A model generated the notes under the pieces. That model saw only the letters and a program-made list of their open reading frames with translations, was not told the DNA's origin and ran no database searches. DNA of 64,000 nt from a virus. Below, in pieces: positions 1-47,152 of this stretch (positions are counted from its first letter, which is position 1; the number at the start of each line of letters is the position of its first letter). The translations under genes were made by a program, and so were the position numbers. The stretch covers positions 34,280-98,279 of the IMG/VR virus record IMGVR_UViG_3300008448_000020. The stretch is one strand, 5' to 3'.

Positions 1-253
1 CGACATCGCCGTCAATATTAGTGTTTAGCCCGTGTAATACATTATACGCCTCATTACCGCTATCTATTTTTGCGGCAACCACTCCGATGCCATTAATGAA
101 AATATTTTCTACTACTGGTAAAATTAACTTTGCATCAGCATCTTCCTTAACACAATTGTTAACAAGCTTGCCGTTTTTTTTCTTAAGACCCCTCTTAACA
201 TACCCCTTCCAGCACTTTTTTTCATTAAAAAATTCTTTAAACGTTAATTGCAC
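1..253 (-). CDS. Partial late gene: CW-rich N-terminus plus aspartic-protease-like segment
   Basis: Only the first 84 codons are inside the window; the gene runs off the left edge. It starts with GTG at 253, 5 nt after a perfect TATAAATA late box on the reverse strand. The N-terminus reads MQLTFKEFFNEKKCWKGYV, followed by a Lys/Gly stretch and NNCV; I recall this CW-G-Y...C pattern at the start of many T4-like virion proteins. Further on, FINGIGVVAAKIDSGNEA followed by NVLHG resembles the flap-plus-catalytic 'DSG/DTG' region of retropepsin-like aspartic proteases. The protease idea is an inference from a short motif. FKEFFNE also fits the head-targeting tag seen on other late genes here. A forward frame covering 21-272 is the antisense shadow of this gene. 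Confidence 0.6.
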   Translation of the reverse strand, partial: MQLTFKEFFNEKKCWKGYVKRGLKKKNGKLVNNCVKEDADAKLILPVVENIFINGIGVVAAKIDSGNEAYNVLHGLNTNIDGDV

Positions 254-258
254 ACAAT

Positions 259-266
259 TATTTATA
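259..266 (-). promoter_or_regulatory. Late promoter box TATAAATA
   Basis: Perfect T4 late consensus on the reverse strand, 5 nt from the GTG at 253. A start site about 6 nt past the box would put +1 on the start codon. Confidence 0.75.
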
Positions 267-303
267 ATATAAATTGTAATATTTTAGTAGCCTAGAAATT
301 AAA

Positions 304-311
304 TATAAATA
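304..311 (+). promoter_or_regulatory. Late promoter box TATAAATA
   Basis: Perfect late consensus, 3 nt before the ATG at 315. It forms a divergent pair with the reverse box at 259-266. Confidence 0.7.
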
Positions 312-314
312 GCT

Positions 315-863
315 ATGTTCGCAAAAGATATTGAATTACTGAACGAAATCTACGTACAAAAAATAACCGAAATGGGTATCGGGCCGAGAGGTGATAATGA
401 CAGTATGCAACCATCAGTATCTAAGGTTAATCATGTTGAAATGCCTCCTCACAGACAGTGCGGTCAATGTAGTGATGAAGAATGTGAAGGTTCAGTAAAT
501 CATGAAGATACAAACGCGGGAATGGTTAAGCAAAGTTTATTTAGGCTTGTAAAGCTTTCAGCAATGTTACATGATTTAGTTGCAAAACATAGCAGCGCAG
601 AGCCGTGGGTATTAAGTAAAGTGACAGAAGCTCTTAATCACATCGAATCTGTTTATGGCTATATGGACTATGAAACATATCGTCAACAGGTCGATACGGA
701 TATAGAGAATATTGAAGAAGAAACAGAGCAAGATCTTTATAATTCTATAGCCAATGGCGGTGAGACGATTATTAATAAGATCCGTACAGTACTTTCAAGA
801 GAATCTAAAGAGCAAATAGAAGATTTTTTATATGAAGCTATTACAGCTCTCGAAAGCCGATAG
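315..863 (+). CDS. Probable internal virion protein with head-targeting-like N-terminus
   Basis: A 182-residue protein of unknown function driven by its own late box. The N-terminus MFAKDIELLNEIYVQKI contains LLNE, a good match to the [LI]xE cleavage consensus of T4-type prohead proteases. Residues 62-110 (SLFRLVKLSAMLHDLV then EPWVLSKVTEALNHIESV) match a recurring helical module (FRL-K-A-LHD...EPWV-KIT-A...I-SV) that I recall from T4-like and jumbo phage virion proteins. A cysteine cluster CGQCSDEEC lies near residue 50 and could bind metal. It ends tail to tail with the reverse gene at 864. No enzymatic motif is visible. Confidence 0.65.
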   Translation: MFAKDIELLNEIYVQKITEMGIGPRGDNDSMQPSVSKVNHVEMPPHRQCGQCSDEECEGSVNHEDTNAGMVKQSLFRLVKLSAMLHDLVAKHSSAEPWVLSKVTEALNHIESVYGYMDYETYRQQVDTDIENIEEETEQDLYNSIANGGETIINKIRTVLSRESKEQIEDFLYEAITALESR

Positions 864-1304
864 TTATTGAACGTACGGGCTCTTTTTCTTCATACTGTTA
901 ACAATAACATTATATTTTTGCATAAAATTATTCTCGTTAACAGAGTTAACAAACTTTTTAAAATTGGGGTTGTTGAGTCTCTCGATATTATCTGATTTCA
1001 CTTCATTTTCGTTCATTACAAACTTAAGTTTATTTTGTATATCGAATGCATTTTCTTTTGTGATATTGTCACCGGTGAAAATTGCGTCAATTTCACCAGC
1101 AGGTATATCCATCACTAATGCTTTAGCGAGCATTTTAACAAGACTTACATATCCCTCAGGAGCAACAGCTTGTGGAGTATTATCAGTAGCAGGCTTAGGT
1201 TGCGCATTAGGATCAGGTGTAGTGGCGTCCTGTGGACTACCTTGCTCTACATCTTGCTCTATTAATGTTGTAATATATTCATTATACTTTGTTAAAAAGG
1301 CCAT
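864..1304 (-). CDS. Probable internal head protein (tagged N-terminus, Pro/Ala linker)
   Basis: A 146-residue late protein. The N-terminus MAFLTKYNEYITTLIEQDVE resembles the short amphipathic tags of neighbouring late genes. A low-complexity Asp/Pro/Ala/Thr linker (residues 20-50) follows, then a helical domain ending in basic residues (KKKSPYV). The start is fixed by a CATAAATA late box 5 nt upstream of the ATG. Monocistronic or at the end of a reverse-strand group; the two genes upstream on the same strand are GIY-YIG and an unknown. No catalytic motif seen. Confidence 0.6.
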   Translation of the reverse strand: MAFLTKYNEYITTLIEQDVEQGSPQDATTPDPNAQPKPATDNTPQAVAPEGYVSLVKMLAKALVMDIPAGEIDAIFTGDNITKENAFDIQNKLKFVMNENEVKSDNIERLNNPNFKKFVNSVNENNFMQKYNVIVNSMKKKSPYVQ

Positions 1305-1309
1305 ATAGT

Positions 1310-1317
1310 TATTTATG
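1310..1317 (-). promoter_or_regulatory. Late promoter box CATAAATA
   Basis: One mismatch to TATAAATA, 5 nt from the ATG at 1304. It lies in the 16-nt gap between two reverse-strand genes. Confidence 0.65.
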
Positions 1318-1320
1318 TTA

Positions 1321-1872
1321 CTATGCTAATAGAAGCTGTTTTGCTTTAAGATCGGTTAACAATTGTTTATCGAGCAAGTAAAGGTCATGTCTTTTTATAA
1401 AAGAAATCGTCTTACTGAACGTGAAAGAACTAAAATCAATTTTGTTAGTATATTCAACAAGCTTTAAAATATACTCTCGTCTATTGCCACACTTATTATC
1501 TAAAAATTTTACATAATCGGCATACGAAACATTATCAATATTATACAACTTCATTGGTAGGAGTGAAGCAATTTTTTTAATACATTTTTGTAAAAAACCG
1601 TGAGGCAGAATACTATGCAAAGATGAAGATGTGTAAGTTGTATCATAATAAAATATAACCTTTACACCTAATTTCTGTGATACAGTAAATTTACATATGT
1701 TATATATCATGTAATGTAAACATATATTTTTAACATCGCTGGAAATTTTCGTTTTGACTTCAATATTATATTGAATAAAATTTGTACATATATCATCATA
1801 ACATTCATTAAGAATTGACCATATATCTACCGCACAAATATTATACTCTTTAATAAAGACAGTACTACTCAC
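1321..1872 (-). CDS. Unknown 183-residue protein downstream of GIY-YIG nuclease
   Basis: I do not recognise this protein. It is rich in Ile, Tyr, Lys and Cys (about eight Cys), with no signal peptide or clear membrane segment. Its start overlaps the end of the upstream GIY-YIG gene by 8 nt, so the two are probably co-transcribed and translationally coupled. A segment VKVIFYYDTTY could be a beta-strand followed by an acidic residue, but that is not enough to assign a fold. Confidence 0.6.
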   Translation of the reverse strand: MSSTVFIKEYNICAVDIWSILNECYDDICTNFIQYNIEVKTKISSDVKNICLHYMIYNICKFTVSQKLGVKVIFYYDTTYTSSSLHSILPHGFLQKCIKKIASLLPMKLYNIDNVSYADYVKFLDNKCGNRREYILKLVEYTNKIDFSSFTFSKTISFIKRHDLYLLDKQLLTDLKAKQLLLA

Positions 1873-2314
1873 TACCTACTATTGTAGCTTCTTTTTTTAG
1901 TTTTTCAAACTCACTTTTTGGCGGTCTGCCGATTCTTACGTTTAGTATGCCGTTATAATAATCATCTCTTACGATAACATCTTGTTTTATTTGCTCTTTT
2001 ATTTCATAATAAGCAAGAGCCCATTTTGAGTCACAAACTTTAATAATAGTAAAAATGAATGATTCTTTACCGTATTTTTCAATATCAATATTAAGATCTG
2101 TAGATGAACCGGTATATTCACGCCAATCAGATTCTCTATAATCAATCCGATTACGCTTTTTTCCCTTTAGCGGCCGTCGTTTTATTCTTGAATTACACTG
2201 CTTTTTACCAATATATTTCTTACCGGTAACAGTATTCTTTATTTCATATATAAAGCCAAAAGAATGGTCAGTAAAGATAACCCCCTCACTTAAAATCCAA
2301 TGACCTAAATTCAT
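1865..2314 (-). CDS. GIY-YIG family endonuclease
   Basis: A 149-residue protein. FGFIYEIKNTVTGKKYIGKK near residue 20 is the GIY-YIG core (here F-I-Y ... Y-I-G), followed by a basic K/R-rich stretch and SDWREYTGSS; a later E (YYEIKEQIK) sits where the family's metal-binding Glu is expected. The whole gene is the nuclease domain plus a short tail, as I recall for stand-alone phage copies, rather than a homing enzyme with a DNA-binding repeat domain. It follows the stop of the upstream reverse gene by 1 nt and is co-transcribed with it. Possible roles are host DNA breakdown or homing; the sequence does not decide. Confidence 0.8.
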   Translation of the reverse strand: MNLGHWILSEGVIFTDHSFGFIYEIKNTVTGKKYIGKKQCNSRIKRRPLKGKKRNRIDYRESDWREYTGSSTDLNIDIEKYGKESFIFTIIKVCDSKWALAYYEIKEQIKQDVIVRDDYYNGILNVRIGRPPKSEFEKLKKEATIVGSE

Positions 2315-2315
2315 A

Positions 2316-2552
2316 CTACATTACAGCAGGCGTACGTCTTGCGATTTTGAATTTTACTCGCTTTTTGCTTTTTTTACGGCCTAAAATTGCATCAACAGGG
2401 TTTATTGGTCTATTATCATTAGGGTTATAAGCTTTGCTGTTTTGACTAGGGAACTGATTACCAAATTCTCCTGTAGCATTTGGACCAAATGCACTACTTG
2501 CTGTCACATCTTCACTAAGTAAAGACTCAAAAATTCTATGAAAAATACTCAT
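2316..2552 (-). CDS. Small probable internal head protein with LLSE cleavage-like site
   Basis: A 78-residue late protein. The N-terminus MSIFHRIFESLLSEDV carries the IFES and LLSE pattern typical of the proposed head-targeting tags. It continues with AFGPNATGEFGNQF and ends in a very basic tail (KKSKKRVKFKIARR) suited to DNA contact inside the head. A TTG at 2558 lies 7 nt after the late box and the ATG at 2552 lies 13 nt after it. I chose ATG because it reproduces the tag motif, but TTG cannot be excluded. Confidence 0.6.
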   Translation of the reverse strand: MSIFHRIFESLLSEDVTASSAFGPNATGEFGNQFPSQNSKAYNPNDNRPINPVDAILGRKKSKKRVKFKIARRTPAVM

Positions 2553-2580
2553 TTGCAAATTTGTATATTTATACTATTAT
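2553..2580 (+). promoter_or_regulatory. Early sigma70-like promoter for the uvsY operon
   Basis: TTGCAA (2553-2558), 16-nt spacer, TATTAT (2575-2580), then ATG at 2592. The late box of the reverse gene lies inside its spacer. Confidence 0.5.
2566..2573 (-). promoter_or_regulatory. Late promoter box TATAAATA
   Basis: Perfect late consensus on the reverse strand, inside the forward early promoter. It probably serves the 2316-2552 gene. Confidence 0.65.
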
Positions 2581-2591
2581 TTAGTAAAATA

Positions 2592-2981
2592 ATGCTTGAA
2601 GACTACATAAAAGAGCTTGAGAATGATTTAAAAATTGATGAACTTAATCTCAAAGATTATCAATTAAGATTACCTGCTTTAAAACATAAATGGGCAGGTA
2701 GAATGATACGTCTTAAACTTGAAGTAGCTAATGATATTAAAGATAGTGAGAGTTTAAAAAAACTTCTAACTAATGAGATACAGAAAAATGCACCTGTAAA
2801 ACTATCATTACCAGCTATTAGTTCTGCAGTTGAAAAACATACACAATACAAACAATTAGTAGAAAAAATAAGTCATAAAAAATTGGTTATAGAATTGCTA
2901 GAAAAAACAGAGAAGACGCTGAGCAGTGCTACATATGATATTAAAAATCTCATAGAGATTATGAAATTAGAAATAACGTAA
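2592..2981 (+). CDS. uvsY: UvsY-like recombination mediator
   Basis: A 129-residue highly helical, charged protein. In T4 UvsY loads the UvsX recombinase onto gp32-coated single-stranded DNA. Support: size close to T4 UvsY (137), an N-terminal LEDYIKELENDLKID like the T4 start, a K-W-x-x-x-x-x-x-L-K motif (HKWAGRMIRLKLE), and a C-terminal YDIKNLIEIMKLE matching the family's 'IKN-I-Y--F' ending. It is immediately upstream of UvsW, the same recombination grouping as in T4. The ATG at 2592 is preferred over an upstream frame extension because the early promoter lies just before it. The stop overlaps the UvsW start. Confidence 0.7.
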   Translation: MLEDYIKELENDLKIDELNLKDYQLRLPALKHKWAGRMIRLKLEVANDIKDSESLKKLLTNEIQKNAPVKLSLPAISSAVEKHTQYKQLVEKISHKKLVIELLEKTEKTLSSATYDIKNLIEIMKLEIT

Positions 2982-4429
2982 TGATAAACGTTGGCTTTGA
3001 CAAAGCGAAAAGACTCGGTATAATATCAGGTGATCTGTTTCAGGAGATGCGCGAGTACTTTTCTGTTAAAAATGACGCAGCACGCTTTGCAAAACGTTAC
3101 AATAGATTCATACCGTCGCGTATATATGCTATAACACCAAACGGTCGATTCGAGCCAGGTATGTATAATGATATACGTCAATTTATTTTAAGTAAAAATT
3201 ATGTAGGTGATATAGTAGTAGATAAAGAATTTACAGATTTCTTAATACCGGCATTATCTACATGGCATACATCACCTAAATTTACTAATGAACCGTTACC
3301 GTTACTATTACCGCTGCGAGATTATCAGCGCGAAATAGTAAAGCGTAGCTTGGAGTACGGCAGAGGCACTATATTGCTTGCGACAGCAGGCGGTAAAACA
3401 CTAACAGCTGCCTCCATACTCACAAATATTTTTCATATATACGGCAGTAAGTTTAAATGTCTTTTTATTGTTCCTGATAGAGGTCTTGTAGAGCAGACGA
3501 GCTCAGATTTTGATCAATACGGTGTATCATTTACAGTCTCAAAATGGACAGGCGACGATCCTCTTGATAAAACCGCGAATGTTATTGTAGCAAATATCGG
3601 TATAATGCAAAGCAAGAATACTGATCTTTCTTGGTTATGTGAGGTTGATGTATTGTTTATAGACGAGTGCCATAGATTGAGAAAAGGAAATGAAATAAAC
3701 AATATTTTTAAAATATTAAAAACACCACACCGTTACGGTTTAACTGGTACAATGCCAGAAGGCCCTCTCGATCAATGGAATATAACAGGTAAAATAGGTC
3801 CTGTTATTTATAAAAAAGAGAGTATTGATTTGCGTAATGAAAGTTACATCTCCGGTGTTGAGATACAAATATTAAAGCTTAAACATAACAATCACAAACA
3901 TAATCTCACGTATAGAGAAGAAATAGAGACATTAATAACAAGTGATTACAGAAATAACACAATAAGCACTATCTCCTCGAAATTACAAAAGAACACTTTA
4001 GTATTGGTGGATTACATTGAGCACGGCAAACGTTTATATGATTCAATAACAAAAGCAGCACCTGCTAAACGTGTTTTTTTCATACACGGGGATATAGATG
4101 TCTCTGAGAGAGATAAAGTAAGACAGTTAATGGAAGAAGCAGACGATATTGTTGTAGTTGCTATCTCTAAAATATTCTCCACCGGTATTAACATTAAAAA
4201 TTTACACTATATTATTTTTGCTTGTGGTGGAAAAGCAAAGGTGAAGATAGTACAATCAATAGGTCGCGGTTTGAGACTGCACAAGGATAAGGATAAGCTG
4301 ATTATTTTTGATATTGCAGATGCTTACCACTACAGTTTAAGTCACCTTGAAAAACGAATTTTATTATATGAAAAAGAGCACATTAAATTCTCAATCAAAG
4401 AAATTGAAGAAAAAAAATCAGGAAATTAA
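2981..4429 (+). CDS. uvsW: UvsW-type SF2 RNA-DNA and branch-migration helicase
   Basis: A 482-residue superfamily 2 helicase. T4 UvsW unwinds R-loops and branched recombination intermediates and shifts the phage to recombination-dependent replication. Visible motifs: Q-motif-like LRDYQREIV (113-120), Walker A ATAGGKT (134-140), DECH box (228-231), motif III LTGTMPE (254-260), and C-terminal motif VI SIGRGLRL. The N-terminal 90 residues match the accessory domain of UvsW. Length is close to T4 UvsW (about 500). It starts one base before the UvsY stop and overlaps the gp55 start at its 3' end, so the operon is tightly coupled. Confidence 0.93.
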   Translation: MINVGFDKAKRLGIISGDLFQEMREYFSVKNDAARFAKRYNRFIPSRIYAITPNGRFEPGMYNDIRQFILSKNYVGDIVVDKEFTDFLIPALSTWHTSPKFTNEPLPLLLPLRDYQREIVKRSLEYGRGTILLATAGGKTLTAASILTNIFHIYGSKFKCLFIVPDRGLVEQTSSDFDQYGVSFTVSKWTGDDPLDKTANVIVANIGIMQSKNTDLSWLCEVDVLFIDECHRLRKGNEINNIFKILKTPHRYGLTGTMPEGPLDQWNITGKIGPVIYKKESIDLRNESYISGVEIQILKLKHNNHKHNLTYREEIETLITSDYRNNTISTISSKLQKNTLVLVDYIEHGKRLYDSITKAAPAKRVFFIHGDIDVSERDKVRQLMEEADDIVVVAISKIFSTGINIKNLHYIIFACGGKAKVKIVQSIGRGLRLHKDKDKLIIFDIADAYHYSLSHLEKRILLYEKEHIKFSIKEIEEKKSGN

Positions 4430-12191: not shown

Positions 12192-13328
12192 ATGGAAAAA
12201 GAAATCGATAATATATTCAAGAAGCTAGATTCACTTAACAGCGAGGCAACATTCCTAGACGAGAATGCCCTATCAAATGTCGATACTTGGTATGACACAG
12301 GATGTTATGCACTGAATGCTATCCTTGGCGGTAGTTGTAGAAAAGGCGGTGTACCAAAGGGTAGAATTGTGGGATTCTCCGGTGAATCAATGACTGGAAA
12401 AACATTTATTGTGAATAAAATTTTAGCTAATGCTCAGAAGCAAGGCGTATATCCGGTCATTTTTGACACTGAATTTGCCATCGATGAAGGTTCAACAAAA
12501 GGCGTCGGTCTCGACCCTTCGAAAACGAAATATGTACCTGTTTATACGGTAGATCAGTGCAGGAATCAGCTATCTGCATTCTTGGATAGTGTTATTGAAA
12601 ATAAGCAAGAAGGTAAGTTTATTATTAGTATTGACAGTCTTGGCAATCTTTCCTCACAGAAAGAAATCGATGACATTGCAAAGGATAAATCTGCAGCAGA
12701 TATGGGGTTGAGAGCGAAATCTTTGAAGAGTTTACTACGCACTCTTACCTATAAGGCAGGGCGTGCTGGCGTGACGATTCTGTTTACCAACCATACGTAT
12801 GCTGATCCTGGTGCAATGTATCCATCGCTCATAAAAAACCAAGCAGGTGGGTCTGGACCGGTGTATATGGCGAGTATTCTAGTACAGCTCGCTAAACGCA
12901 ACGAGAAGGAAGGTGAGGGTGATGCAGGTGCAGTTAACACAACAAAACTTGCTGAAGCGAACAAATACTCAGGAACTACACTACGAGCATTGACTGTTAA
13001 AAATCGCTTTGTTCCACCGTTTCTTGAAGCAGAAATGTACCTCTCATTCAAGTCGGGTCTTAACAAGTATAGCGGGTTACTACAGATGGCAGCAGCACGA
13101 GGTATCGTTGAACAAACTGGTTCGACATATGTTGTAGGTGTTGATAGTGGTAAGTATAAAAAAGGTGAAAAACTGGGATATGCTAAGAATTTCGTGAAGG
13201 ATATCTCTTTCTTTGAAGACTTCTTGATACCAGAACTCGACAAGAGACTTACTGAAGATTACAAATACAACAGTAATGACGGTGAAACACAACCGAAGAT
13301 TGAAGAAGAATTTGTAGACAATGAATAA
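12192..13328 (+). CDS. uvsX: UvsX recombinase (RecA family)
   Basis: A 378-residue strand-exchange ATPase. Walker A GESMTGKT (64-71); catalytic Glu region FDTEFAID; Walker B FIISIDSLGNL; DNA-loop region KNQAGGSGPVYMAS; acidic C-terminal tail. T4 UvsX is 391 residues. It works with UvsY (2592) and gp32 (19281) for recombination-dependent replication. Its own early promoter precedes it and its end overlaps the queC start by 8 nt, so QueC is made from the same message. Confidence 0.96.
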   Translation: MEKEIDNIFKKLDSLNSEATFLDENALSNVDTWYDTGCYALNAILGGSCRKGGVPKGRIVGFSGESMTGKTFIVNKILANAQKQGVYPVIFDTEFAIDEGSTKGVGLDPSKTKYVPVYTVDQCRNQLSAFLDSVIENKQEGKFIISIDSLGNLSSQKEIDDIAKDKSAADMGLRAKSLKSLLRTLTYKAGRAGVTILFTNHTYADPGAMYPSLIKNQAGGSGPVYMASILVQLAKRNEKEGEGDAGAVNTTKLAEANKYSGTTLRALTVKNRFVPPFLEAEMYLSFKSGLNKYSGLLQMAAARGIVEQTGSTYVVGVDSGKYKKGEKLGYAKNFVKDISFFEDFLIPELDKRLTEDYKYNSNDGETQPKIEEEFVDNE

Positions 13329-14031
13329 GGTAGTTTTATCGTATTCTGGTGGTATGGACTCAACTGTCCTACTATATAAAGCACTACATGACTTTGACGT
13401 TGTACACACAGTTACCTTTAACTACGGTCAAAGGCACCACAAAGAGATTGAAATAGTAAAGAGTCAAATAGAACGTCATTCTAGCAAGAAATTAACGAAT
13501 GTTATACTTGATTTACCGTTCTTTCAGCAATTCAAAGGTTCATCATTACTCGATAATACCATTGACGTAGCCAAGGCAAAAGACGTTATGGGTGACCCAC
13601 AAACAGTAAACTATGTACCGTTCAGAAACACTATATTTTTGTCAATTTTGGCAGGGTATGCGGAAAGTGTAGGTGCTAAGACAGTATGGTACGGAGCAGC
13701 GCAAGCTGATAGTGTCGCGGGCTTCTACGACGGGAGCATTGAGTTTCTCGATCAAATCAACGATATTACAAAACTCAATAGGAGACACGTAATATCCATA
13801 GAAGCACCACTTATCGACCTATCTAAGAAAGAAATAATCAAACTCGGTCAACAGTATGATGTTGACTATACTGACACATGGACATGTTATGAAGGTAAGG
13901 ACGTGGCGTGTGGTGAATGCACGGCATGCGCACTACGTTTGAAAGGGTTTGTTGATGCAGGCATACCAGATCCTGTTCCGTACTCAAAAGTTATACCATG
14001 GGATAAGCTTATTAAGCTCCCTGCCAGATAG
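13321..14031 (+). CDS. queC: QueC, 7-cyano-7-deazaguanine (preQ0) synthase
   Basis: A 236-residue ATP-dependent enzyme converting carboxy-deazaguanine to preQ0. Seen: PP-loop SYSGGMDST (SGGMDS at 9-14), the GQRHHKEI motif, FRNTIFLSILAGYAE, and a zinc site of four Cys with family spacing (C189, C197, C200, C203). All key residues are present, so it should be active. Overlap with uvsX implies early expression. Phages use preQ0 and derivatives to modify DNA against restriction. QueD, QueE, FolE and DpdA are not in this window. See the amidotransferase at 15520 for a possible partner. Confidence 0.95.
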   Translation: MNKVVLSYSGGMDSTVLLYKALHDFDVVHTVTFNYGQRHHKEIEIVKSQIERHSSKKLTNVILDLPFFQQFKGSSLLDNTIDVAKAKDVMGDPQTVNYVPFRNTIFLSILAGYAESVGAKTVWYGAAQADSVAGFYDGSIEFLDQINDITKLNRRHVISIEAPLIDLSKKEIIKLGQQYDVDYTDTWTCYEGKDVACGECTACALRLKGFVDAGIPDPVPYSKVIPWDKLIKLPAR

Positions 14032-14517: not shown

Positions 14518-15465
14518 TTAATTTTGCTGTGCCCAGTAAGATCTACCGGTCTGTGGCATAAAGTGCTTTGATGCATACTCTTCAGGATCGAGATTTACAT
14601 CTGTAGTGTCGCCTGCATCTTCTAAATCGTCGCCAGACTCACCAGGGACAACTTTTGACCCATCGGTATCAAATATACCTCTATTAATAAGGCCTTTTAT
14701 TAAACCTGTGGCTCGAGTTTCAGCGCTCTTGCTTGAGATTTCTGGATCACTCTGAACATAAAGTTGACCGATTTCTCTTGCAAGCTCAGACATCTCCATA
14801 CCACCTTCAACAGAATACACAAGCTTCTTAGCTGCTTCAATGTATTTGTTGCTTGTTGGCTCAGTGCTCGCAGCAGGGGCACCTGCTGCAGGCTCACTTA
14901 CTGCAGGTTCACCTTCTGGTGCTGCAACAGGTGCAGGTTTGTCAGCAGTTTGCTGTACTGCAGTAGCGACAGCACTTTGTACTTCACCTTCTGAAGGCGG
15001 CTCATCACCCTGTACTTCATCTTCAAGAGCCTGAACAACATCTTGTATAAAACCTCTAAAAATACGAGCAGTGTATCCATGAATAGCGCTAGAAGTTAAA
15101 CCTTTTACATTTTCAAGCTCAGGGTATGATGACTTAAGCTGTTGTATTACAGCAGGTAATTTTTGCTGAATAGCATTTTGCAATTTACCGAGCTGCTCTC
15201 TTTTATCACCAGAAGCAGCAAATTTTCCGCCGGGAAATAACTCATCATATATTGGTTTTGCAAGAATGTCAGCGACTTCTTCCGTCGATTTGTTTAATGC
15301 TGCTTTTAAAATCTTAAAAACATATGTATCATTTGTCTTTTCACGTTCACCGACACCTTTTGATACTGCAGATCCGAATGTCCCATATTCCGCACCGAGG
15401 TCGAGCTCATTCAATATAACACGGTTTTTATATTGTTCAAAAATTAAATTACAATCCTTATTCAT
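14518..15465 (-). CDS. Probable internal head protein, Pro/Ala linker
   Basis: A 315-residue late protein. The N-terminus MNKDCNLIFEQYKNRVILNE ends in ILNE, a good prohead-protease-type site. Residues 20-150 are helical; 150-205 is an acidic Pro/Ala/Glu linker (repeats of PAA and EP); 205-260 is a second helical domain; the tail is acidic and ends YWAQQN. Two reverse-strand AATAAATA boxes precede it at 15475-15482 and 15493-15500. It is first gene of a two-gene reverse unit inserted between queC and the amidotransferase. Function unknown; virion location is inferred from the tag and late promoter. Confidence 0.6.
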   Translation of the reverse strand: MNKDCNLIFEQYKNRVILNELDLGAEYGTFGSAVSKGVGEREKTNDTYVFKILKAALNKSTEEVADILAKPIYDELFPGGKFAASGDKREQLGKLQNAIQQKLPAVIQQLKSSYPELENVKGLTSSAIHGYTARIFRGFIQDVVQALEDEVQGDEPPSEGEVQSAVATAVQQTADKPAPVAAPEGEPAVSEPAAGAPAASTEPTSNKYIEAAKKLVYSVEGGMEMSELAREIGQLYVQSDPEISSKSAETRATGLIKGLINRGIFDTDGSKVVPGESGDDLEDAGDTTDVNLDPEEYASKHFMPQTGRSYWAQQN

Positions 15466-22537: not shown

Positions 22538-23575
22538 GTGATATTACCGTTAGAGTATATTGTACAGAAATTCTATCAATATGCAGGGTTTCCGAAGTAC
22601 AAGAAGCTTTCTAAAGCTCATGAAGCGTGCTGTCCTATATGTCGTGAAGGTCGTTCATGGGGACGAAAAAAACGTTGTTACTATCTAATAGATAAAAATG
22701 CCATTTGCTGTCACAATTGTGGCTGGTATTCCAATCCCCTCGAATGGATAATGCAGGTATCAGGTCTCACTAGAGAAGAAATTTACAAAGAATCTCAGCA
22801 TTTCGATGTACTGCCGCTCGACATCTTACACTATGAAAGTGATATTGAGCCTACGAAGACCTATCAACACGTGTTGCCGCTTGATAGCATTAACCTATAT
22901 GATGAGAGTCAGCTACACTTTTATAACAAGAATAAAGTAGTAACTGATGCATTAAAGCTTATAAAGGAGAGACGTATTGATAAGGCAGTAAACAGACCTG
23001 ATACTCTTTGGCTCTCTTTAACAGATAAAGTACATAAGAACCGCATCATTATACCATTTTACAACGAAGATGGTGATATTATCTTTTACCAGACAAGAGC
23101 TATATATGAAAAAGATACATACCTCAGACCAAAGTATCTCGGTAAAATAAACGGGGAAAGATCTTTATTCAATATTAATAAAATTGACCCATCATTAGAT
23201 TATATTTTTATTTTTGAAGGACCTATCGATGCTTTCTTTGTACGTAATGCAACAGCCGTTGCAGGCATCCAAGAGAAAAGCAGCAAGACATTCACTGTTC
23301 TACAAGAACAACAATTGTCACTTTTTAGACTGTATAAAAAGATATGGGTCTTAGATAGTCAGTGGTTAGATAATGCTAGTCACAAAAAAACAGAAATTTT
23401 AATTGATCAAGGTGAAACAGTATTTATATGGCCTGAGCAGATAGGGAGACAATTTAAAGACATAAACGATCTTTGTATTGCCTGTGACAGGTATGAAATA
23501 CAACCATCACTTTTTATTAAGAACAGTTTTTCAGGTATAAAAGCAAAATTAATGCTCAGTAATATTAATCGTTAG
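22538..23575 (+). CDS. 61: DNA primase gp61
   Basis: A 345-residue DnaG-type primase; T4 gp61 is 342. N-terminal zinc ribbon: CCPICREG (C32, C35) paired with CCHNCGW (C58, C61). TOPRIM core: FIFEGPIDAFFV near residue 225 and KIWVLDSQW (D) with a later acidic segment. The start is GTG (an ATG two bases upstream is out of frame), supported by the adjacent promoter. It makes primers with gp41. The 3' end overlaps the reverse gene at 23565 by 11 nt, tail to tail. Confidence 0.93.
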   Translation: MILPLEYIVQKFYQYAGFPKYKKLSKAHEACCPICREGRSWGRKKRCYYLIDKNAICCHNCGWYSNPLEWIMQVSGLTREEIYKESQHFDVLPLDILHYESDIEPTKTYQHVLPLDSINLYDESQLHFYNKNKVVTDALKLIKERRIDKAVNRPDTLWLSLTDKVHKNRIIIPFYNEDGDIIFYQTRAIYEKDTYLRPKYLGKINGERSLFNINKIDPSLDYIFIFEGPIDAFFVRNATAVAGIQEKSSKTFTVLQEQQLSLFRLYKKIWVLDSQWLDNASHKKTEILIDQGETVFIWPEQIGRQFKDINDLCIACDRYEIQPSLFIKNSFSGIKAKLMLSNINR

Positions 23576-23963
23576 CGGATATTTTGTATCCTTTGAATGA
23601 TTCACTTAACGAGCTTAATTCAGCAGCAAGACGTGAGATTTTTTTCTTTTCACTACGTGCAATGTCTTGAAAGATAGTTTCGCAAGGAGCTTCATGTAAT
23701 TTTGACTGAATAGACTCTGGCGATGTACCGTTTAAAAATTCAATAAAGGAATCGAGCTGCGCAATCCATTCATCGAGTTGCTTAATTTGATTAGCTTTAT
23801 GTTGATCTACTAATTGCGCTCTTCCTGCTTGCTGTACATCAAAATCACTTGGTCTTGCTGTATCAAGTTGTTGAGCCATCGCTTCACGATCACTAGCAGG
23901 CGCTGGTTGTGGCTCTTCATCAGCTTCGAGTATATAATTAAATTTTTTGCTAAACAAACTCAT
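23565..23963 (-). CDS. Probable internal head protein with tagged N-terminus
   Basis: A 132-residue late protein. The N-terminus MSLFSKKFNYILEADEE matches the head-tag pattern, with a candidate ILE site. An acidic Pro/Ala linker (residues 14-35) is followed by a helical, coiled-coil-like domain (QHKANQIKQLDEWIAQLDSF then FLNGTSPES). The start is fixed by TATAAATA 5 nt upstream. It is divergent from the 23996 gene across 32 nt. Confidence 0.6.
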   Translation of the reverse strand: MSLFSKKFNYILEADEEPQPAPASDREAMAQQLDTARPSDFDVQQAGRAQLVDQHKANQIKQLDEWIAQLDSFIEFLNGTSPESIQSKLHEAPCETIFQDIARSEKKKISRLAAELSSLSESFKGYKISAND

Positions 23964-23995: not shown

Positions 23996-24397
23996 GTGAA
24001 AAATAAGCTGTTATTTGAAGATGCTACAATGTACTATAATAAATGGGTACAAGGTATTGCTGGAAAAGAGTTTGGCACACAGCAGTTAAAATTTAAAGAT
24101 ATAGTAAATGCGAATAAAGACCACGAGTCGCAAAGCCCTAACACTGCAAAAGCGGGTAATGTTATGCCATACCCGCTTCCAAACACTGTCTCAATTTTTG
24201 GTGACTTAATTATCGGTACATCAAATGCACTTACAATGTTTAAAAATGCTCTTAAAAATCCTGCAATAAAGCAAAATAAACAAATGGAGGAAGAAATTAC
24301 TGAGATTATTACCGCTTTAAAAAAATCACTTTTTGAGTTAAATTCTTATTTTGCTAAAGCAAAAGAAAGAGTTGAAAAAGCGCCACCTGTTTCTTAA
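23996..24397 (+). CDS. Probable late head protein with LFED tag
   Basis: A 133-residue protein starting with GTG, 5 nt past a late box. The N-terminus MKNKLLFEDATMYYNKWVQG has the short LFE tag. Middle: NVMPYPLPNTVSIFGDLII, then helical KNPAIKQNKQMEEEITEII. Function unknown. It heads a forward late unit running to 25772. Confidence 0.55.
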   Translation: MKNKLLFEDATMYYNKWVQGIAGKEFGTQQLKFKDIVNANKDHESQSPNTAKAGNVMPYPLPNTVSIFGDLIIGTSNALTMFKNALKNPAIKQNKQMEEEITEIITALKKSLFELNSYFAKAKERVEKAPPVS

Positions 24398-26511: not shown

Positions 26512-26841
26512 TTATTTTTCAATAATAGGTCTATTCATAGAAGCATCAAACCGTAGTGTAACACCTGTATTACCTATCTTTTTGGGTTTATTAGGGTCAA
26601 ATCTCAAAGGCGGAAATTCACCTTCAATTTGTGCTATATCTTTTTTACTCAAAACTGCCTTACCTGATTGCTGCTTCATGAGAGTGTTAAGCTTTTGATT
26701 CTTATGTATAGTACGATGCATATCAGGTACAAATTTACCCGGTGATTGTGGATGTGATGAAACATCGCGACCTATAGGATGCATATGTCGTTTCTTTGTC
26801 GGCTCAACACTCTTCGTATTAAAATAGTCTTTAAAATTCAC
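26512..26841 (-). CDS. Small basic late protein
   Basis: A 109-residue Lys/His/Pro-rich protein (pattern KKRHMHPIGRDVSSHPQSP). GTG start, 5 nt after TATAAATA. MNFKDYFNTKS resembles the beginning of the head tags but has no acidic cleavage site. The segment LSKKDIAQIEGEFPPLRFDP is the only structured-looking part. Probably co-transcribed with the neck gene downstream (5-nt gap). Function unknown. Confidence 0.6.
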   Translation of the reverse strand: MNFKDYFNTKSVEPTKKRHMHPIGRDVSSHPQSPGKFVPDMHRTIHKNQKLNTLMKQQSGKAVLSKKDIAQIEGEFPPLRFDPNKPKKIGNTGVTLRFDASMNRPIIEK

Positions 26842-26911: not shown

Positions 26912-27487
26912 TTACTTGAGACCAGCGAGATATTCGCCGACCTTTGATGCCTTACCGGCAACTTTATTATTCTTACCCTTGAGGTTGCCGGAATCTGTAT
27001 CTGAGACAATGGCATGCTTACCAGTGCTCTTTGAGCTTACTTCATCAGTTACTTTTCCTTCTCCGCCACCTTTTGATGTGAGCTTACCAGTTACATCGCC
27101 GACCTTGTTATTTTTGCTCTGTAAGGATTCACCTTTACCTTTAAGCTCTTTAATATCTGTTGCTTCACCGAGTGTGTCGCTATCTTCATCATCAACTTCT
27201 TCTTCTTCGTCTTTTTCTTCAGCGTCTTCACTCATCTCACCGCCCATTTCAGGCTCTTCTTCAACGGCTGGCTCTTCTTCGCCACCGAGAACACCCATTA
27301 AAAGATCATGTAATTTTTGTGCTGTTTCACGATCCATGGTAAGTGTGACAGTATCTTCACCTTCCATCTCACCCTCGCCTTCGCCTTCACCAGGCAAGCC
27401 GAGAGCCTCAGCATCATTAACTTCTGTATCATCGAGGCGTTCAGACATTACATCCTCGTAAAGCTTATCAAAAATAGATTTGTTCAT
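26912..27487 (-). CDS. Acidic prohead-core-like protein, short form from internal late promoter
   Basis: A 191-residue product starting at an in-frame internal ATG (27487), 5 nt after TATAAATA. The N-terminus MNKSIFDKLYEDVMSERLDD carries the LYE head tag. Then a Gly/Glu run (residues 30-42), a helix TMDRETAQKLHDLLMGVLGG, a strongly acidic stretch (about 80-120), and a Lys/Gly/Ser-rich tail with repeated KNNKV. An acidic tagged protein next to the terminase recalls T4 core proteins such as gp67, but this is analogy, not homology that I can show. Confidence 0.65.
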   Translation of the reverse strand: MNKSIFDKLYEDVMSERLDDTEVNDAEALGLPGEGEGEGEMEGEDTVTLTMDRETAQKLHDLLMGVLGGEEEPAVEEEPEMGGEMSEDAEEKDEEEEVDDEDSDTLGEATDIKELKGKGESLQSKNNKVGDVTGKLTSKGGGEGKVTDEVSSKSTGKHAIVSDTDSGNLKGKNNKVAGKASKVGEYLAGLK

Positions 27488-27766
27488 AAAATTATTTATA
27501 TTTTGTGTTTCTGTTTTTTCATTATTTTGAGAAAATTTTTTAGGCTCAAAGAAGTTATTCTTTTTTGAGGTTTTAGGATCTATAGTTTCTTCCTTAATAC
27601 CTTCAGCTTCTGCAGGGCCAGACGGTGATGATACAAAAGGCTTTTTGCCTTTACCTTTTGCAGGTGCAGCTTTTTTCGAAGTTTCAACCTGAAACGTATC
27701 TTTTGGTAAAGTTACTTTTTCTTCATATAGCTCACCGAGCTGTTCCATTGTACGAGTTAAGTTCAT
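26912..27766 (-). CDS. Long form of the same frame, 93-residue N-terminal extension
   Basis: The same reading frame is open from an ATG at 27766. The extra 93 residues (MNLTRTMEQLGELYEEKV..., a KKAAPAKGKGKK basic run, and a Pro/Ser/Ala segment) look coding and contain their own LYEE. The start lies 18 nt from the divergent terminase start in an AT-alternating stretch, where no canonical late box fits well. Whether the long form is made, or only the short form, cannot be settled from sequence. Confidence 0.45.
   Translation of the reverse strand: MNLTRTMEQLGELYEEKVTLPKDTFQVETSKKAAPAKGKGKKPFVSSPSGPAEAEGIKEETIDPKTSKKNNFFEPKKFSQNNEKTETQNINNFMNKSIFDKLYEDVMSERLDDTEVNDAEALGLPGEGEGEGEMEGEDTVTLTMDRETAQKLHDLLMGVLGGEEEPAVEEEPEMGGEMSEDAEEKDEEEEVDDEDSDTLGEATDIKELKGKGESLQSKNNKVGDVTGKLTSKGGGEGKVTDEVSSKSTGKHAIVSDTDSGNLKGKNNKVAGKASKVGEYLAGLK
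27493..27500 (-). promoter_or_regulatory. Late promoter box TATAAATA inside a reading frame
   Basis: Perfect consensus, 5 nt from the internal ATG at 27487. It encodes part of NINN of the long form. Confidence 0.75.
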
Positions 27767-33990: not shown

Positions 33991-34863
33991 ATGCTTTCTT
34001 TTTATTATACAGTATATATACCCAGCCAGCAACGCACTATAAGACTAAAAGAGTTAACGTTTAAAGAATATAAAAGTATAGTAAAGACTATAACAAACGA
34101 CAACAACGCATTAATTGAAGTTGCGTTTAATGAGCTTATTGAAAAAGCCACCGATCAGAAACACGAAACCTTTACATTTCTTGATAAGCTGCTTATACTG
34201 CTTACAATCCGTTCAGTTTGCATACTTTCTGACATAGAACTAATCGTGACATCGCCAGAAACAGAAAAAAAGTTTAACGTAAATTACCGTATTTACGATA
34301 TTATACAAAAGCTTGCTGAACTCGATTTAACAGGATATGATACGATTATAAAAACATATAATGCTATACTTGAAGTTACTTTTGGTATACCAAATAATTT
34401 ATTTATTGATAAAACTAACGAATCATTATTTACAACAATAAGACAAATAAAAATTAATAATATTGTAGTACCGTTAGAGAGAGACGATATAGTAGAACGA
34501 TTACCGGTAAATGTTTTTAAAGACGCTAAGAATTTTTTAACAGAACTAGAGAGCAAAATAAATGGTATAAATTTAATGACAGTTATGGCGCCGGATACAT
34601 CACCTGATAATTCTCTAGAAGTACCGTTAACCCTTGTTGAAAATTCAGTACTCGAATTTCTTAAATTATGCTATAAAAGGGAGTTGCTGTCTATATATGA
34701 GCTTGAATATATTTTAACATCAAAGTTAAAACTACCCTACGATGTAGTGTATGGATCGACACCGGCAGAGCTTATGCTGTATATTAATTTTTATAATAAG
34801 GAAAAAAGCGAACAACAAAAACAACAGAACCGGTCGGTAATGATCGGACCACCACCTCAATAG
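33991..34863 (+). CDS. Tape-measure or hub chaperone, first of two paralogues
   Basis: A 290-residue protein. The N-terminus VYIPSQQRTIRLKELTFKEY then KSIVKTI matches the T4-like gp26/gp51-type hub assembly pattern 'P---R-I--K-LT-KE-K-L-K'. FLDKLLILLTIRSVCI and a C-terminal FLKLCYKRELLSIYELEYIL follow. The next gene is clearly related. In myophages, such proteins upstream of the tape measure act as assembly chaperones. Disordered Gln-rich tail. Confidence 0.6.
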   Translation: MLSFYYTVYIPSQQRTIRLKELTFKEYKSIVKTITNDNNALIEVAFNELIEKATDQKHETFTFLDKLLILLTIRSVCILSDIELIVTSPETEKKFNVNYRIYDIIQKLAELDLTGYDTIIKTYNAILEVTFGIPNNLFIDKTNESLFTTIRQIKINNIVVPLERDDIVERLPVNVFKDAKNFLTELESKINGINLMTVMAPDTSPDNSLEVPLTLVENSVLEFLKLCYKRELLSIYELEYILTSKLKLPYDVVYGSTPAELMLYINFYNKEKSEQQKQQNRSVMIGPPPQ

Positions 34864-39835: not shown

Positions 39836-39838
39836 CAA

Positions 39839-44400: not shown

Positions 44401-44634
44401 AAAGCATTGCTAGAAATGGACTTTAAAGAAGTAAAGGAAAAAATTGGTGAAATGGTTGAGCGGTTTGTTAATAGAATTATCGAGCGGTTTAATATTGTTA
44501 AATTACTCAAACAACTCAACAAATCATTTAAAGAAACACTTGAAGAGATTGGGAAGAAATTTATTAAACAATTTCTCAGCTGTGAAAAATACAAGAAAGC
44601 TGATAAATCAGGTAAACCGTCAGCTGGCGGTTAA
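41494..44634 (+). CDS. Large hub-associated protein with DTGG beta-barrel-like segment
   Basis: A 1046-residue protein. N-terminal 330 residues are mixed; Gln/Ala-rich helices follow near 340-370. Residues about 450-550 contain RLRQPAIVTFTDANGNSYKI then LAVGNDTGGKW and TYRALQSQGLGVEVGRN; the VxxNDTGG pattern recalls double-psi barrels (3D or MltA-type) that cut peptidoglycan. Then a Ser/Ala/Pro-rich low-complexity stretch and a C-terminal amphipathic coiled coil (KEVKEKIGEMVERFVNRII). Position after the hub suggests a spike or gp5-like role. The enzymatic idea is an inference from one motif. Confidence 0.55.
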   Translation: MSRRGNKNVIIGSQNIADANVTGSLVYLNNGAVKLKSGLGKLASEKEIKSAVNFRNAFKAGNVATALNSFFSNIESQYKSFSFANDSILYWVVKKKYSYREIVRYSSTGSLFTQGFLSKIVPQGLTRFASEAATSLQNFANNPLVQAGSSIIGVSPINTGTADLSDFNDATSDSIGVMANTKYMQLDSTLPLIDITQERYGVPIPFSASTENKISPTTRNIMYNLSKFNTALMRRNLIPVAYGNTTVTANLAVDATLAHGVNLINDLPTFVKLNSGIGALISALVSVISNPRIFQYISYLSNIGNKSGFNYRDNRPAMASDKDFILLKGEEQAAGIVNEINEMASLAQAQAKIQQLTQSSVIEEYFSGRSSVVLPRNTVSASGQTGIYAAAEGNISTTATAQDAGQITSFSFNNDGNTTQDTTLSNTYLGQTASGIPNDSEILGYTIPLDSSLKKIQLDANGNPVARLRQPAIVTFTDANGNSYKILAVGNDTGGKWVGNNSSQRTWGEFGSNTYRALQSQGLGVEVGRNSSGTPFLNMPKGTTASFEFLEGSVTSVEQYRELQSQLSTQGRIGTSYQANSNAGANVKAVTQAASQAAAIQNESIVEPPLPDWPESGATNTQSNILAPSPGATASNDVAPTTFRGNQEVVDIDALMNEASSENSSDTDAILLPAGADLSYQLPATSTPSKADDFAPTTLALNTPGTITAPGFNNAQQQAATGTSLLQDVVSLMSGLGSGKFSNRQTADIFTFFINVEGVYQKVDYLLKSVRTGFNPSKAIQQRLSTTAATAASNRLDTSSPATAAAQLSLLGVPEGLADAASTLIGGMFDNDQSNDVISGLIQKNYDGFIDGALENPIAQTITGYYDGAAGSINQLGGLLGGDPTLGPLLPTSSELIDVLDPSLIFDDLQLPPILPSVDIGSIKDLLSLAASVATSGPPTSLTGFIKMQEQLYSIICNFQLPIITFPDVKALLEMDFKEVKEKIGEMVERFVNRIIERFNIVKLLKQLNKSFKETLEEIGKKFIKQFLSCEKYKKADKSGKPSAGG

Positions 44635-45101
44635 TTTTCGAGTTGCTTATTTTCAACAACCTGCCCTTCAATAGGTTTTGCTTCCTTAAAGAGCATCTTA
44701 AATATATCTTCTCTCTTGAGAGCTATTTTAAGATTTTCATCAGCAGTTTGTAATTCCTTCTTTACTGCAACATCCATTTCTTTAATTTTTACAGACGTTT
44801 CATTTTTCTTATTTGAAATAACAATTTTGTTTAGTGTCTCGATAGCTGATGATGCAGCATTTATTAATTCAGCCATCGAAGAAACATCTTTGCTTTCAGG
44901 TGCTGATGTAATATAATCGCGAACATTTGTTATCATGTTAAGAGTCTCGTCAACAAGGGTACTGCTTTTTTGGATTACAAAATCTTCTAAATCCTCCTTA
45001 CGTAAAGGTGGTCTAGGCTCTTCGATTTGTCTCTCTGAAGTAGCAGGAGCCTGTAATTGAGCGAGTAAATCTTCAACTGTAACTTTAGGTTCGTCTTCCA
45101 T
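44631..45101 (-). CDS. Probable small terminase subunit gp16
   Basis: A 156-residue acidic, helical protein. After an N-terminal Pro/Glu-rich part, DFVIQKSSTLVDETLNMITN, DYITSAPESKDVSSMAELIN and AASSAIETLNKIVISNKKNE follow the T4 gp16 layout (helix, 'SP---E----L----- -N--LL-L-K', coiled coil). T4 gp16 is 164. It is encoded far from gp17 and on the reverse strand, with its own late box 10 nt from the ATG. An alternative is an unrelated coiled-coil virion protein. Confidence 0.5.
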   Translation of the reverse strand: MEDEPKVTVEDLLAQLQAPATSERQIEEPRPPLRKEDLEDFVIQKSSTLVDETLNMITNVRDYITSAPESKDVSSMAELINAASSAIETLNKIVISNKKNETSVKIKEMDVAVKKELQTADENLKIALKREDIFKMLFKEAKPIEGQVVENKQLEN

Positions 45102-45111
45102 ACGCGAAAAT

Positions 45112-45119
45112 TATTTATA
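45112..45119 (-). promoter_or_regulatory. Late promoter box TATAAATA
   Basis: Perfect consensus, 10 nt from the ATG at 45101. It lies next to the divergent early promoter at 45125. Confidence 0.65.
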
Positions 45120-45124
45120 CCAGG

Positions 45125-45152
45125 TTGATTTTTTATACAGCAAAATTATAAT
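45125..45152 (+). promoter_or_regulatory. Early sigma70-like promoter for dut and gp44
   Basis: TTGATT (45125-45130), 16-nt spacer, TATAAT (45147-45152), 7 nt before the ATG at 45160. Confidence 0.8.
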
Positions 45153-45159
45153 AACGTGC

Positions 45160-45624
45160 ATGAATTATAATGATACGAAAGATAAAGTTGTCCAATACTT
45201 ACCGGTAATGAAATTCGAGCAGACACATCCAGATGCGAAGCTGCCGAGTAAGAATCACGAGAGTGATACGGGATATGATGTTTATAGTGTAGAGGAAGTT
45301 GTAATACCAGCAAGAGGCAGTGCGGTAGTTAATGTAGGGTTGAAGTTTGCTTTTATCCCAGAAGGTTATTGGGTTAAAGTTGAATCGAGAAGTGGGCTAG
45401 GATTTAAACACGGTGTTTCAGCGCATCCTGGTATTATCGACAACGGATATAGGGGTGATGCAGGTATTAAGCTGTATAATAATACTGACGTTGAATATAA
45501 AGTACAAAAAGGTGATAGAATTGCGCAGTTCGTATTGTATTTTAATATACATATGCCTGTTGAATGGGGAAAGGTAGTTGAAAGTGATAGAGGTGAAAAG
45601 GGGTTTGGTTCATCAGGCAAATAA
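45160..45624 (+). CDS. dut: dUTPase
   Basis: A 154-residue trimeric dUTP pyrophosphatase. All five motifs are present: DTGYDVYS (1), ESRSGLGFKHG (2), GIIDNGYRGD (3), KGDRIAQFVL (4), RGEKGFGSSGK (5, P-loop-like tail). It lowers dUTP and supplies dUMP for dTTP synthesis. Followed after 3 nt by the clamp loader, with a shared early promoter. Confidence 0.95.
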   Translation: MNYNDTKDKVVQYLPVMKFEQTHPDAKLPSKNHESDTGYDVYSVEEVVIPARGSAVVNVGLKFAFIPEGYWVKVESRSGLGFKHGVSAHPGIIDNGYRGDAGIKLYNNTDVEYKVQKGDRIAQFVLYFNIHMPVEWGKVVESDRGEKGFGSSGK

Positions 45625-45627
45625 TAT

Positions 45628-46554
45628 ATGGCATATGACTTCAATTCTTTATGGTGTGAAAAATACCGACCAGCTACATTAGATAATTATGTATGCACAG
45701 ATTCTGTACGGGAGTTTTTTACTTCAGTAAAAGCAAAGAAAGAAATACCTAATCTTCTCTTTATTGGTACACCGGGTCTAGGCAAGACATCGCTCGCTAA
45801 AATCATCGTAAATGACATTCTACAGTGTCAATATCTATACATTAACGCAAGTGATGAGAATGGTATTGATACTATACGTACTAAGGTAACAAGCTTTGCA
45901 CAAACAAGAAGCTTTGATGGAAAGACTAAAGTTATCATACTCGACGAGTGTGATGGTCTCACAATAGATGCACAACGAGTACTCCGCAATACAATGGAAG
46001 AATATGCAAAGTTAACACGCTTTATTCTAACAGCAAACTACAAGTACAGAGTAATTCCTGCTCTTCAGAGCAGATGCCAATCATTCGACCTTACACCAAC
46101 ACTCGAGAGTGTTCTTAAGCGTTGTGTTGTAGTTCTTAAATCAGAAAATATTAGTGTTGCTGATGATCAAAAACCTAAGCTTGTTGAACTAATAAAAAAC
46201 AATTACCCTGATCTAAGAAAATGTATTAACGAATTACAAAAAAATTCTTCTACAGGTGTTCTTAAACTCGATAGTTTAAAGAATGATGAGACGCTTGAAC
46301 TAATCTTTAAAGAGGTGCAAAAAAAGAATATCAATCACATCCGCAGAGTTCTTATTGAGAATGAGCATACTTTTAGTAGCGATTATGTTGCGTTAATGCG
46401 TGATCTCTTTAATTTTATTGATTCAAGAGAACAAGATGCTGAAAGAAAAAAGAATTACTTGATCACCCTTGCAGAGTATATCTATAGATCGAGTTTTGTT
46501 ATTGATCAGGAGATAAATTGTTATTCCTGTTTAATAAAGCTATCTGAGATTTAA
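45628..46554 (+). CDS. 44: Clamp loader large subunit gp44
   Basis: A 308-residue AAA+ ATPase that loads gp45. CEKYRPATLDNYV (N-terminal loader motif), Walker A GTPGLGKT (47-54), Walker B VIILDECDG (D106, E107), sensor 1 FILTANY, arginine-finger motif ALQSRC (SRC), sensor 2 DLRKCINELQ. T4 gp44 is 319. The partner gp62 is not recognisable next to it or elsewhere in the window. It ends 1 nt before the reverse gene at 46556. Confidence 0.95.
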   Translation: MAYDFNSLWCEKYRPATLDNYVCTDSVREFFTSVKAKKEIPNLLFIGTPGLGKTSLAKIIVNDILQCQYLYINASDENGIDTIRTKVTSFAQTRSFDGKTKVIILDECDGLTIDAQRVLRNTMEEYAKLTRFILTANYKYRVIPALQSRCQSFDLTPTLESVLKRCVVVLKSENISVADDQKPKLVELIKNNYPDLRKCINELQKNSSTGVLKLDSLKNDETLELIFKEVQKKNINHIRRVLIENEHTFSSDYVALMRDLFNFIDSREQDAERKKNYLITLAEYIYRSSFVIDQEINCYSCLIKLSEI

Positions 46555-46555
46555 C

Positions 46556-47152
46556 TTAAGGTAGATAAGCTGCAGTATAGCTTGCAGGATCTTTTGCACC
46601 TTTAGCAGGCATACTTGGTATCTTCACGTTTTTACCGGAAAGATTAGTTTCACTTTTTGAATCTTTACCATTACCTAAATCCGCGGTACGCGTTCTACCA
46701 GGAGAGAAGAACGGAACCTCTTCACCCTCATCTTTAACAGGTTTAGCATCGATATGTGATTTATCTTCATATCTGTGTTTTGCAGGTACTTCAGGCAAAT
46801 TAGGATATGAATCCACACGTACTAAGAGATGTACAGGTACAGTTATTGCATCATTTGAAAATCTACCAGGTGCAATTTCACGGCATACTTCAGCATTAAA
46901 GCTATATCCATTATTATCAGTATTACCAGCACCCATTACTGCTGGCATAGCAGATTTAATATTTTTAATACGTAAAGTATCGCCAGATGTAATATATCTT
47001 TCTACTTCTTTCTTATAGTCATCTTGGACCTCTTTAAAAAATGGATCACGCAAGGCGCCATCAGCAAATTTTACAACATCATTGGCGAGAAATCCGCCAT
47101 TAGTATAACGGGTACGAATGCTCTCATAAAGCTTTACGAATTTTTTATTCAT
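46556..47152 (-). CDS. Conserved T4-like virion protein with LYES tag
   Basis: A 198-residue late protein. MNKKFVKLYESIRTRYTNGG begins with the head-tag pattern; GGFLANDVVKFADGALRDPF then FKEVQDDYKKEV and a DTLRIKNIKSAMPAVMGAGN segment match a conserved domain I recall in T4-like phages, often listed as structural. The C-terminal third is disordered and Lys/Ser/Gly-rich. AATAAATA lies 6 nt upstream of the ATG. Function unknown. Confidence 0.65.
   Translation of the reverse strand: MNKKFVKLYESIRTRYTNGGFLANDVVKFADGALRDPFFKEVQDDYKKEVERYITSGDTLRIKNIKSAMPAVMGAGNTDNNGYSFNAEVCREIAPGRFSNDAITVPVHLLVRVDSYPNLPEVPAKHRYEDKSHIDAKPVKDEGEEVPFFSPGRTRTADLGNGKDSKSETNLSGKNVKIPSMPAKGAKDPASYTAAYLP

Follow-up and report, generated by a model that had tools for sequence, protein, structure and literature searches.

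We analysed a 64,000-nucleotide stretch of virus DNA (the window; positions 34,280 to 98,279 of the 98,279-base IMG/VR record IMGVR_UViG_3300008448_000020, or C1:34280-98279), in which otherwise unrelated late genes begin with similar short peptides. We conclude, with a probability of about 0.8, that these shared N-termini are capsid-targeting sequences (CTSs) of the kind known from phage T4, cut by the phage's own gp21, and that one of the proteins bearing them is a mimic of the N-terminal arm (N-arm) of the major capsid protein (MCP). The DNA comes from an uncultured T4-like virus of bacteria, a T4-like myovirus by its Pfam matches (family B DNA polymerase, T4-type terminase, tail sheath and UvsY). 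Its head genes lie outside the window, in the left third of the record, and include a portal gene, the MCP gene (PHROG 138, E 1.4e-83), a scaffold gene assigned from its position (T4-like order) and N-terminus, and a T4-type prohead protease gene (Peptidase_S77, PF03420; C1:5512-5952, E 1.4e-36). This protease, which the original prediction expected elsewhere in the genome, is also present in 12/12 relatives, and sites of the same kind as the tags occur in this genome's own protease, scaffold and MCP. The MCP is at most ~34% identical to those of cultured phages. IMG/VR holds hundreds of relatives. Seven long members of this group (108-230 kb) were examined over their whole length and, with this genome, make up the eight related genomes compared below.

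The strongest sequence evidence that the Glu ending a tag is a protease site comes from the gene at 2316-2552 (Table 1; / denotes the predicted cleavage position). After its tag Glu, the encoded protein continues as the MCP does after its own Glu, and the alignment of the two would therefore place both cuts at the same residue. Among the relatives, mimic and MCP alike read E/(x)NVAGGxGSVFG...GNQFPSQNDxAYAPGDARxPKIL. The MCP arm used as a query finds 2316-2552 in its own genome (G000) with E 4e-5, and a hidden Markov model of the mimic family matches each of the eight MCPs over residues ~57-105, with E values down to 2e-18. Where the MCP enters the capsid fold (IPMIRRTFPEL), the mimic has a Lys-rich stretch followed by xQRR(P/S)LPGL. 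The gene is found in 8/8 genomes in the same neighbourhood, with uvsY/uvsW and a SegE-type endonuclease gene, and has 47 distinct members in IMG/VR. Its tag ends in [LIVMF]xE in 47 of 49 distinct N-termini; the length of the tag varies (mainly 14, 16 or 17, and 10 in two relatives) and the Glu stays. No second full MCP (a gp24-type paralogue) was found in the eight genomes, only the arm mimic.

A protein of the same build is encoded by T4 itself. Searched with its own MCP arm, T4 yields one other place, gene 61.1 (E 0.001), whose 54-residue product, MKTFKEFIKE/DMVAGDSGGNPENISIGTTSGAVVNKGPEQIPKKKKEESKEKEE, consists of a T4 CTS, the arm and a Lys-rich tail. Its arm is identical to that of gp23 (E/AEIGGDHGYNATNIAAGQTSGAVTQIGPA) at 14 of 28 positions, and gp23 is the top match when gp61.1 is compared with the entire PDB (E 0.007). 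The T4 arm query also finds an arm copy in seven other Straboviridae, six of which have a longer protein with a front of ~100 residues ending near a Glu just before the arm. Cyanophage mimics copy their own, quite different, MCP arm, as seen in three of four cyanophages tested: S-SM2 (MKTLKQFLKE/TPTNSVGNGGYTSAGGQTVAGYD, own-arm match E 4e-11), P-HM2 (E 2e-9) and S-B43 (E 9e-9). We conclude that gp61.1 is the same kind of protein as the product of 2316-2552. The window mimic has no PHROG match, including to PHROG 1823 of gp61.1, and does not share the T4 gene neighbourhood, lying by uvsY and not gene 61. In the literature searched, gp61.1 appears only as a name; some GenBank entries label it 'major capsid domain-containing protein', which indicates that annotators had already seen the arm similarity. 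Somewhat short of an even chance, in our estimate, is the broader proposal that T4-like phages generally carry a dedicated small head protein, composed of a cleavable leader, a copy of the mature MCP N-arm and a DNA-binding tail, that fills open N-arm sites or ties the shell to packaged DNA and is kept in step with the MCP of each lineage.

All ten peptides named in the original prediction occur in the window at the positions given there. To count such tags, genes were called in the eight genomes, classed by the presence of a T4-type late promoter and searched in their first 24 residues for [LIVMF]xE with another hydrophobic residue before it and without Pro. The motif occurs in 120 of 330 late-promoter genes (36%) vs 19% of other genes (Fisher P = 1e-9; P = 0.002 with one vote per homology cluster), a contrast less clean than the shuffle control, as a start choice that rewarded the TAAATA box may have made late-gene starts more accurate. 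Shuffled versions of the same N-termini give a background of 11%, and stretches from inside the proteins one of 11.5%. The excess of tags among late genes amounts to ~10 per genome, in line with the original count of about ten. Rewarding the TAAATA box may also have inflated the late-promoter peak, which is kept with plain first-ATG open reading frames (68 at -11 and 52 at -12 vs a mean of 1.7).

The tags are laid out as in T4, with early aromatic residues followed by [LI]xE (P3 here being L, I, V or F and sometimes Y). Mutagenesis of the T4 tag has shown that residues 4 and 7 target the protein and that 8 and 10 direct processing, at a site of the form L/I-X-E; in T4 IPIII, exchanging the Glu for Asp prevents cutting and still permits entry (PMC9026906). 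Aromatic residues stand near these targeting positions in the families of the genes starting at 23963 (F4, F8) and 47152 (F5), and tagged late clusters are enriched in Phe at positions 3-5 and 9; the motif search required only a nearby hydrophobic residue, so this enrichment was not built in. T4 controls have the same form (MKTYQEFIAE/A, MELITELFDE/D, MLKEQLIAE/A and LLIE/T), and near-copies of the T4 tag occur in relatives (MKTFKQYIQE, MKSFKDFIFE). Within this genome the tags are alike in pattern and hardly in sequence (6 similar N-terminal pairs vs 1 in each shuffle). Those of one relative, G008, clearly share sequence, with 18 strong pairs vs 0-1 in shuffles; at least eight of its otherwise unrelated proteins start with variants of MNKDSHLIFEAY, and MNxDSxLIFEAY is common to unrelated proteins.

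Within the large families, the Glu that ends the tag stays fixed as other tag residues vary. In the 23963 family, F4, F8 and E13 are invariant, with L/I at 12, among 65 distinct homologues, and most other tag positions drift. The tag Glu of the 1304 family is found in 60/60 distinct homologues, at positions 15-17, with [LIVMF] at P3 in 54/60 and a wide choice elsewhere; the six members that lack [LIVMF]xE keep the Glu at the same place, and 57/60 have a late promoter. F5 and E10 are invariant in 57/57 distinct homologues of the 47152 protein. The protein starting at 15465, whose N-terminus as first listed reads MNKDCNLIFEQYKNRVILNE/LD up to the later cut, has the tag motif in 8/8 relatives, and N2, D4, LIFE, Y12 and the second Glu, E20, are invariant in the alignment. 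The [LI]xE of the 315 protein is retained in 7/8 relatives, and in the 23996 family [LIVF]xE precedes a conserved YNKWV core in 8/8. No relative of the 14512 gene was found in the other seven genomes, and the gene lacks a late promoter of its own. Outside the window, conserved tags are found at C1:26496-26711 in five to six genomes and at C1:32909-33331 in 8/8, and C1:32349-32912 carries a tag and has no relative that we could find.

Table 1. Tagged genes in the window, with predicted cleavage sites (/) and promoters
Position	Strand	Feature	N-terminus	Remarks
1-253	-	Start of retropepsin-like protein (PF05618, E 4.2e-7)		Continues to C1:34038; TATAAATA at -13
315-863	+	Tagged protein, class B-like	MFAKDIELLNE/IY	Late promoter
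864-1304	-	Tagged protein	MAFLTKYNEYITTLIE/QD	
2316-2552	-	MCP N-arm mimic	MSIFHRIFESLLSE/DV	Arm copy DVTASSAFGPNATGEFGNQFPSQNSKAYNPNDNRP; Lys-rich tail; 78 residues
14012-14512	-	Tagged protein	MTDDTNKLALLYESQIVNE/GI	Directly behind 14518-15465; basis: sequence
14518-15465	-	Tagged protein, class B tag	MNKDCNLIFE/QY...RVILNE/LD	Late promoter
23565-23963	-	Tagged protein	MSLFSKKFNYILE/AD	TATAAATA at -13
23996-24397	+	Tagged protein	VKNKLLFE/DA	GTG start
26512-26841	-	Degenerate member	MNFKDYFNTK	Late promoter; relatives MKSFKDFIFE/ or SLLE/
26912-27766	-	Acidic protein, likely two nested products	MNKSIFDKLYE/DV (inner start, 27487)	
46556-47152	-	Tagged protein	MNKKFVKLYE/SI	Late promoter

The bodies behind these tags are of several kinds. 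Nine window genes scanned whole against PHROG and Pfam gave no match, and tblastn with three tagged proteins found none in cultured phages. The 23963 protein is modelled as a helical bundle, with a helix over residues 2-13 that ends at the Glu, a loose linker and helices over 45-131; confidence in the tag is modest, and a fold search of the PDB returned no significant match. For the 47152 protein the AlphaFold model is weak (pLDDT 61), and the viral fold closest to it, that of a T4 motB-region protein (E 0.005), did not convince us. The gene starting at 253 runs beyond the window and begins with GTG, giving (V)QLTFKEFFNE/KKCWKGY...; its only PHROG and Pfam matches are PF05618 and PHROGs of unknown function. 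In this gene and at L003:17039-17533, a KCWKGYxxxGxxxKxGKxVxNCV module separates the tag from the body of the retropepsin-like protein, and further copies of the module are found within other phage proteins or at their ends (PHROG matches, G008_8086, G008_215683).

The peptide reported at 27487 exists, though not at the gene's only start, as the reading frame begins at 27766. All eight genomes conserve an (A)TAAATA box shortly before the inner ATG, and 26912-27766 therefore likely encodes two nested in-frame products, as is also annotated for T4 genes 17 and 49. A TAAATA-type site before the outer start is present in most genomes and not in the window's own. By composition, the product looks like an acidic core protein.

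The tagged set thus mixes a capsid-protein mimic, an acidic core-like protein with nested starts and a protease-like enzyme. Motif, layout, conservation and protease all uphold the T4-type reading of the tags; the accompanying idea of a uniform group of ten unknown injected proteins gives way to this mixed set. By analogy with T4, tags of 8-20 residues with early aromatics and a terminal [LIVF]xE would draw late proteins into the prohead scaffold core; the tag would bind the core, a gp21-type protease would remove it and the body would stay in the head. We give about one chance in three to a reading in which the tags target their carriers and are cut, with the carriers serving mostly as helpers of the core or scaffold that are broken down or lost before the DNA is packaged and are not injected as cargo. 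T4 gp22, gp67 and gp68 end up as peptides (PMC9958956), and the acidic nested gene resembles a core protein in composition. Most carriers, however, have one clean site and a conserved body, like the T4 internal proteins, and one is enzyme-like.

For the mimic, the cut would expose a first ~35-45 residues equivalent to the mature MCP N-terminus, with the Lys-rich tail replacing the capsid fold. The N-termini of T4 gp23* are disordered in the prohead, and expansion yields N-arms together with an N-fist of 25 residues that contacts four subunits (PMC9958956). In our preferred hypothesis, to which we give about one chance in three, the mimic docks after expansion in N-arm sites that the MCP leaves empty (for example, around the portal vertex) and its basic tail lies on the DNA. 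About as likely is a decoy role in assembly, in which the 2552 protein and gp61.1 would compete with the MCP, controlling size or timing, and would not be parts of the finished shell. The presence of the same N-arm without a capsid fold is consistent with such competition, as is the disorder of the T4 MCP N-termini inside the prohead until expansion. The predicted protease cut and the Lys-rich tail, in turn, would suit a protein that persists near DNA.

That the peptides are ordinary amphipathic N-termini, with [LI]xE common in helices and the pattern mere noise, is very improbable. The motif is indeed short, with a background of 11-20%, and within this genome the tags have little sequence in common. 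Against this reading stand the three-fold excess in late genes, a Glu that never varies across several large unrelated families, the MNxDSxLIFEAY start shared by unrelated proteins and the match of the 2552 protein to the MCP from the Glu onward. Still less probable is that the arm copies merely remain from past recombination with the MCP gene, which would account for copies that derive from, or track, each lineage's MCP at locations differing among T4, the cyanophages and this clade, but not for an intact gene kept 8/8 in the same place by uvsY/uvsW, with tag and tail conserved over 47 distinct IMG/VR members and a wide distribution in Straboviridae.

Several observations weigh against reading the shared N-termini as cleaved CTSs and the arm copies as their carriers. 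The motif is short and turns up in 19% of non-late genes; chance surely accounts for some of its occurrences, such as that in a 1056-aa tail-region protein. The MCP site in the window's clade is WCFE/A, with C and not L/I at P3 (CINE/ and CLNE/ in relatives). At 253, the predicted peptide is present and its Glu is missing in 3/8 relatives; the site of the gene starting at 26841 is likewise not kept in all relatives. C48C1, the remaining one of the four cyanophages tested, shows no mimic, and the P-HM2 copy has no tag in front. The preference of mimics for their own MCP is weak within lineages (permutation P 0.03 and 0.15), and at such marginal values we do not claim tight mimic-MCP co-evolution within them. 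Finally, cutting and packaging in this uncultured clade are extrapolated from T4.

Late promoter boxes (TATAAATA / TAATAAATA) lie 11-13 bases before the start codon throughout the record (e.g. 23963-, 253-, 33066+ and 56300+), in contrast to T4, where the late box is at about -35. Few genes of the record are preceded by a Shine-Dalgarno site, and late mRNAs of the clade may be leaderless. Other shared N-termini were also seen: about ten proteins of G003 begin with MADVTISxL (G003:C1:110-15516) and three of G001 with MPNVPDFRDL (G001:C1:148199-153652), either of which may be a tail-side docking tag. Elsewhere in the window, 13321-14031 encodes QueC (Pfam), and QueE- and FolE-like proteins were recognized by eye outside it (L003:12382-13140 and L003:16391-17044); together they make 7-deazaguanine DNA modification possible. 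Two proteins made of TVNSNSANWNSVYS-type repeats are encoded at 56300-59861, and an alpha/beta hydrolase (dienelactone hydrolase or S9 type) at 62416-63903, behind the tail genes.

Together, these findings would carry the head-targeting code of T4 over to an abundant phage clade that has no close cultured relatives and list ~10 candidate head proteins for it. They also lead to a specific prediction for T4 gene 61.1, so far only a 'hypothetical' gene: in the most thoroughly studied of all phage heads, its product would be a gp21 substrate, a head protein and a copy of the capsid N-arm.

Among known systems, T4 IPI-III and Alt share with the window proteins a tag of ~10-20 residues with early aromatics and a terminal [LI]xE, a gp21-type protease and bodies unrelated to one another. 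They differ in that the window bodies have no similarity to the internal proteins or Alt (no PHROG or Pfam match), that here there are about ten carriers, and that some tags are longer or have a second site (MNKDSxLIFEAY...LNE). T4 gp61.1 (PHROG 1823; long form PHROG 2086 in RB43-type phages) resembles the mimic in its Glu-ended tag or propeptide, N-arm copy and Lys-rich tail, whereas the arm letters here follow another MCP lineage and the gene lies by uvsY, not between 61 and 61.2 as in T4. The vertex protein gp24 of T4 is also an MCP paralogue cut by gp21, but has a full-length capsid fold. In phiKZ and SPN3US, a relative of gp21 likewise cleaves head proteins, the ejection proteins, after Glu, although their propeptides are mostly >100 residues long and the phiKZ motif is S/A-X-E (PMC5694885, PMC9026906).

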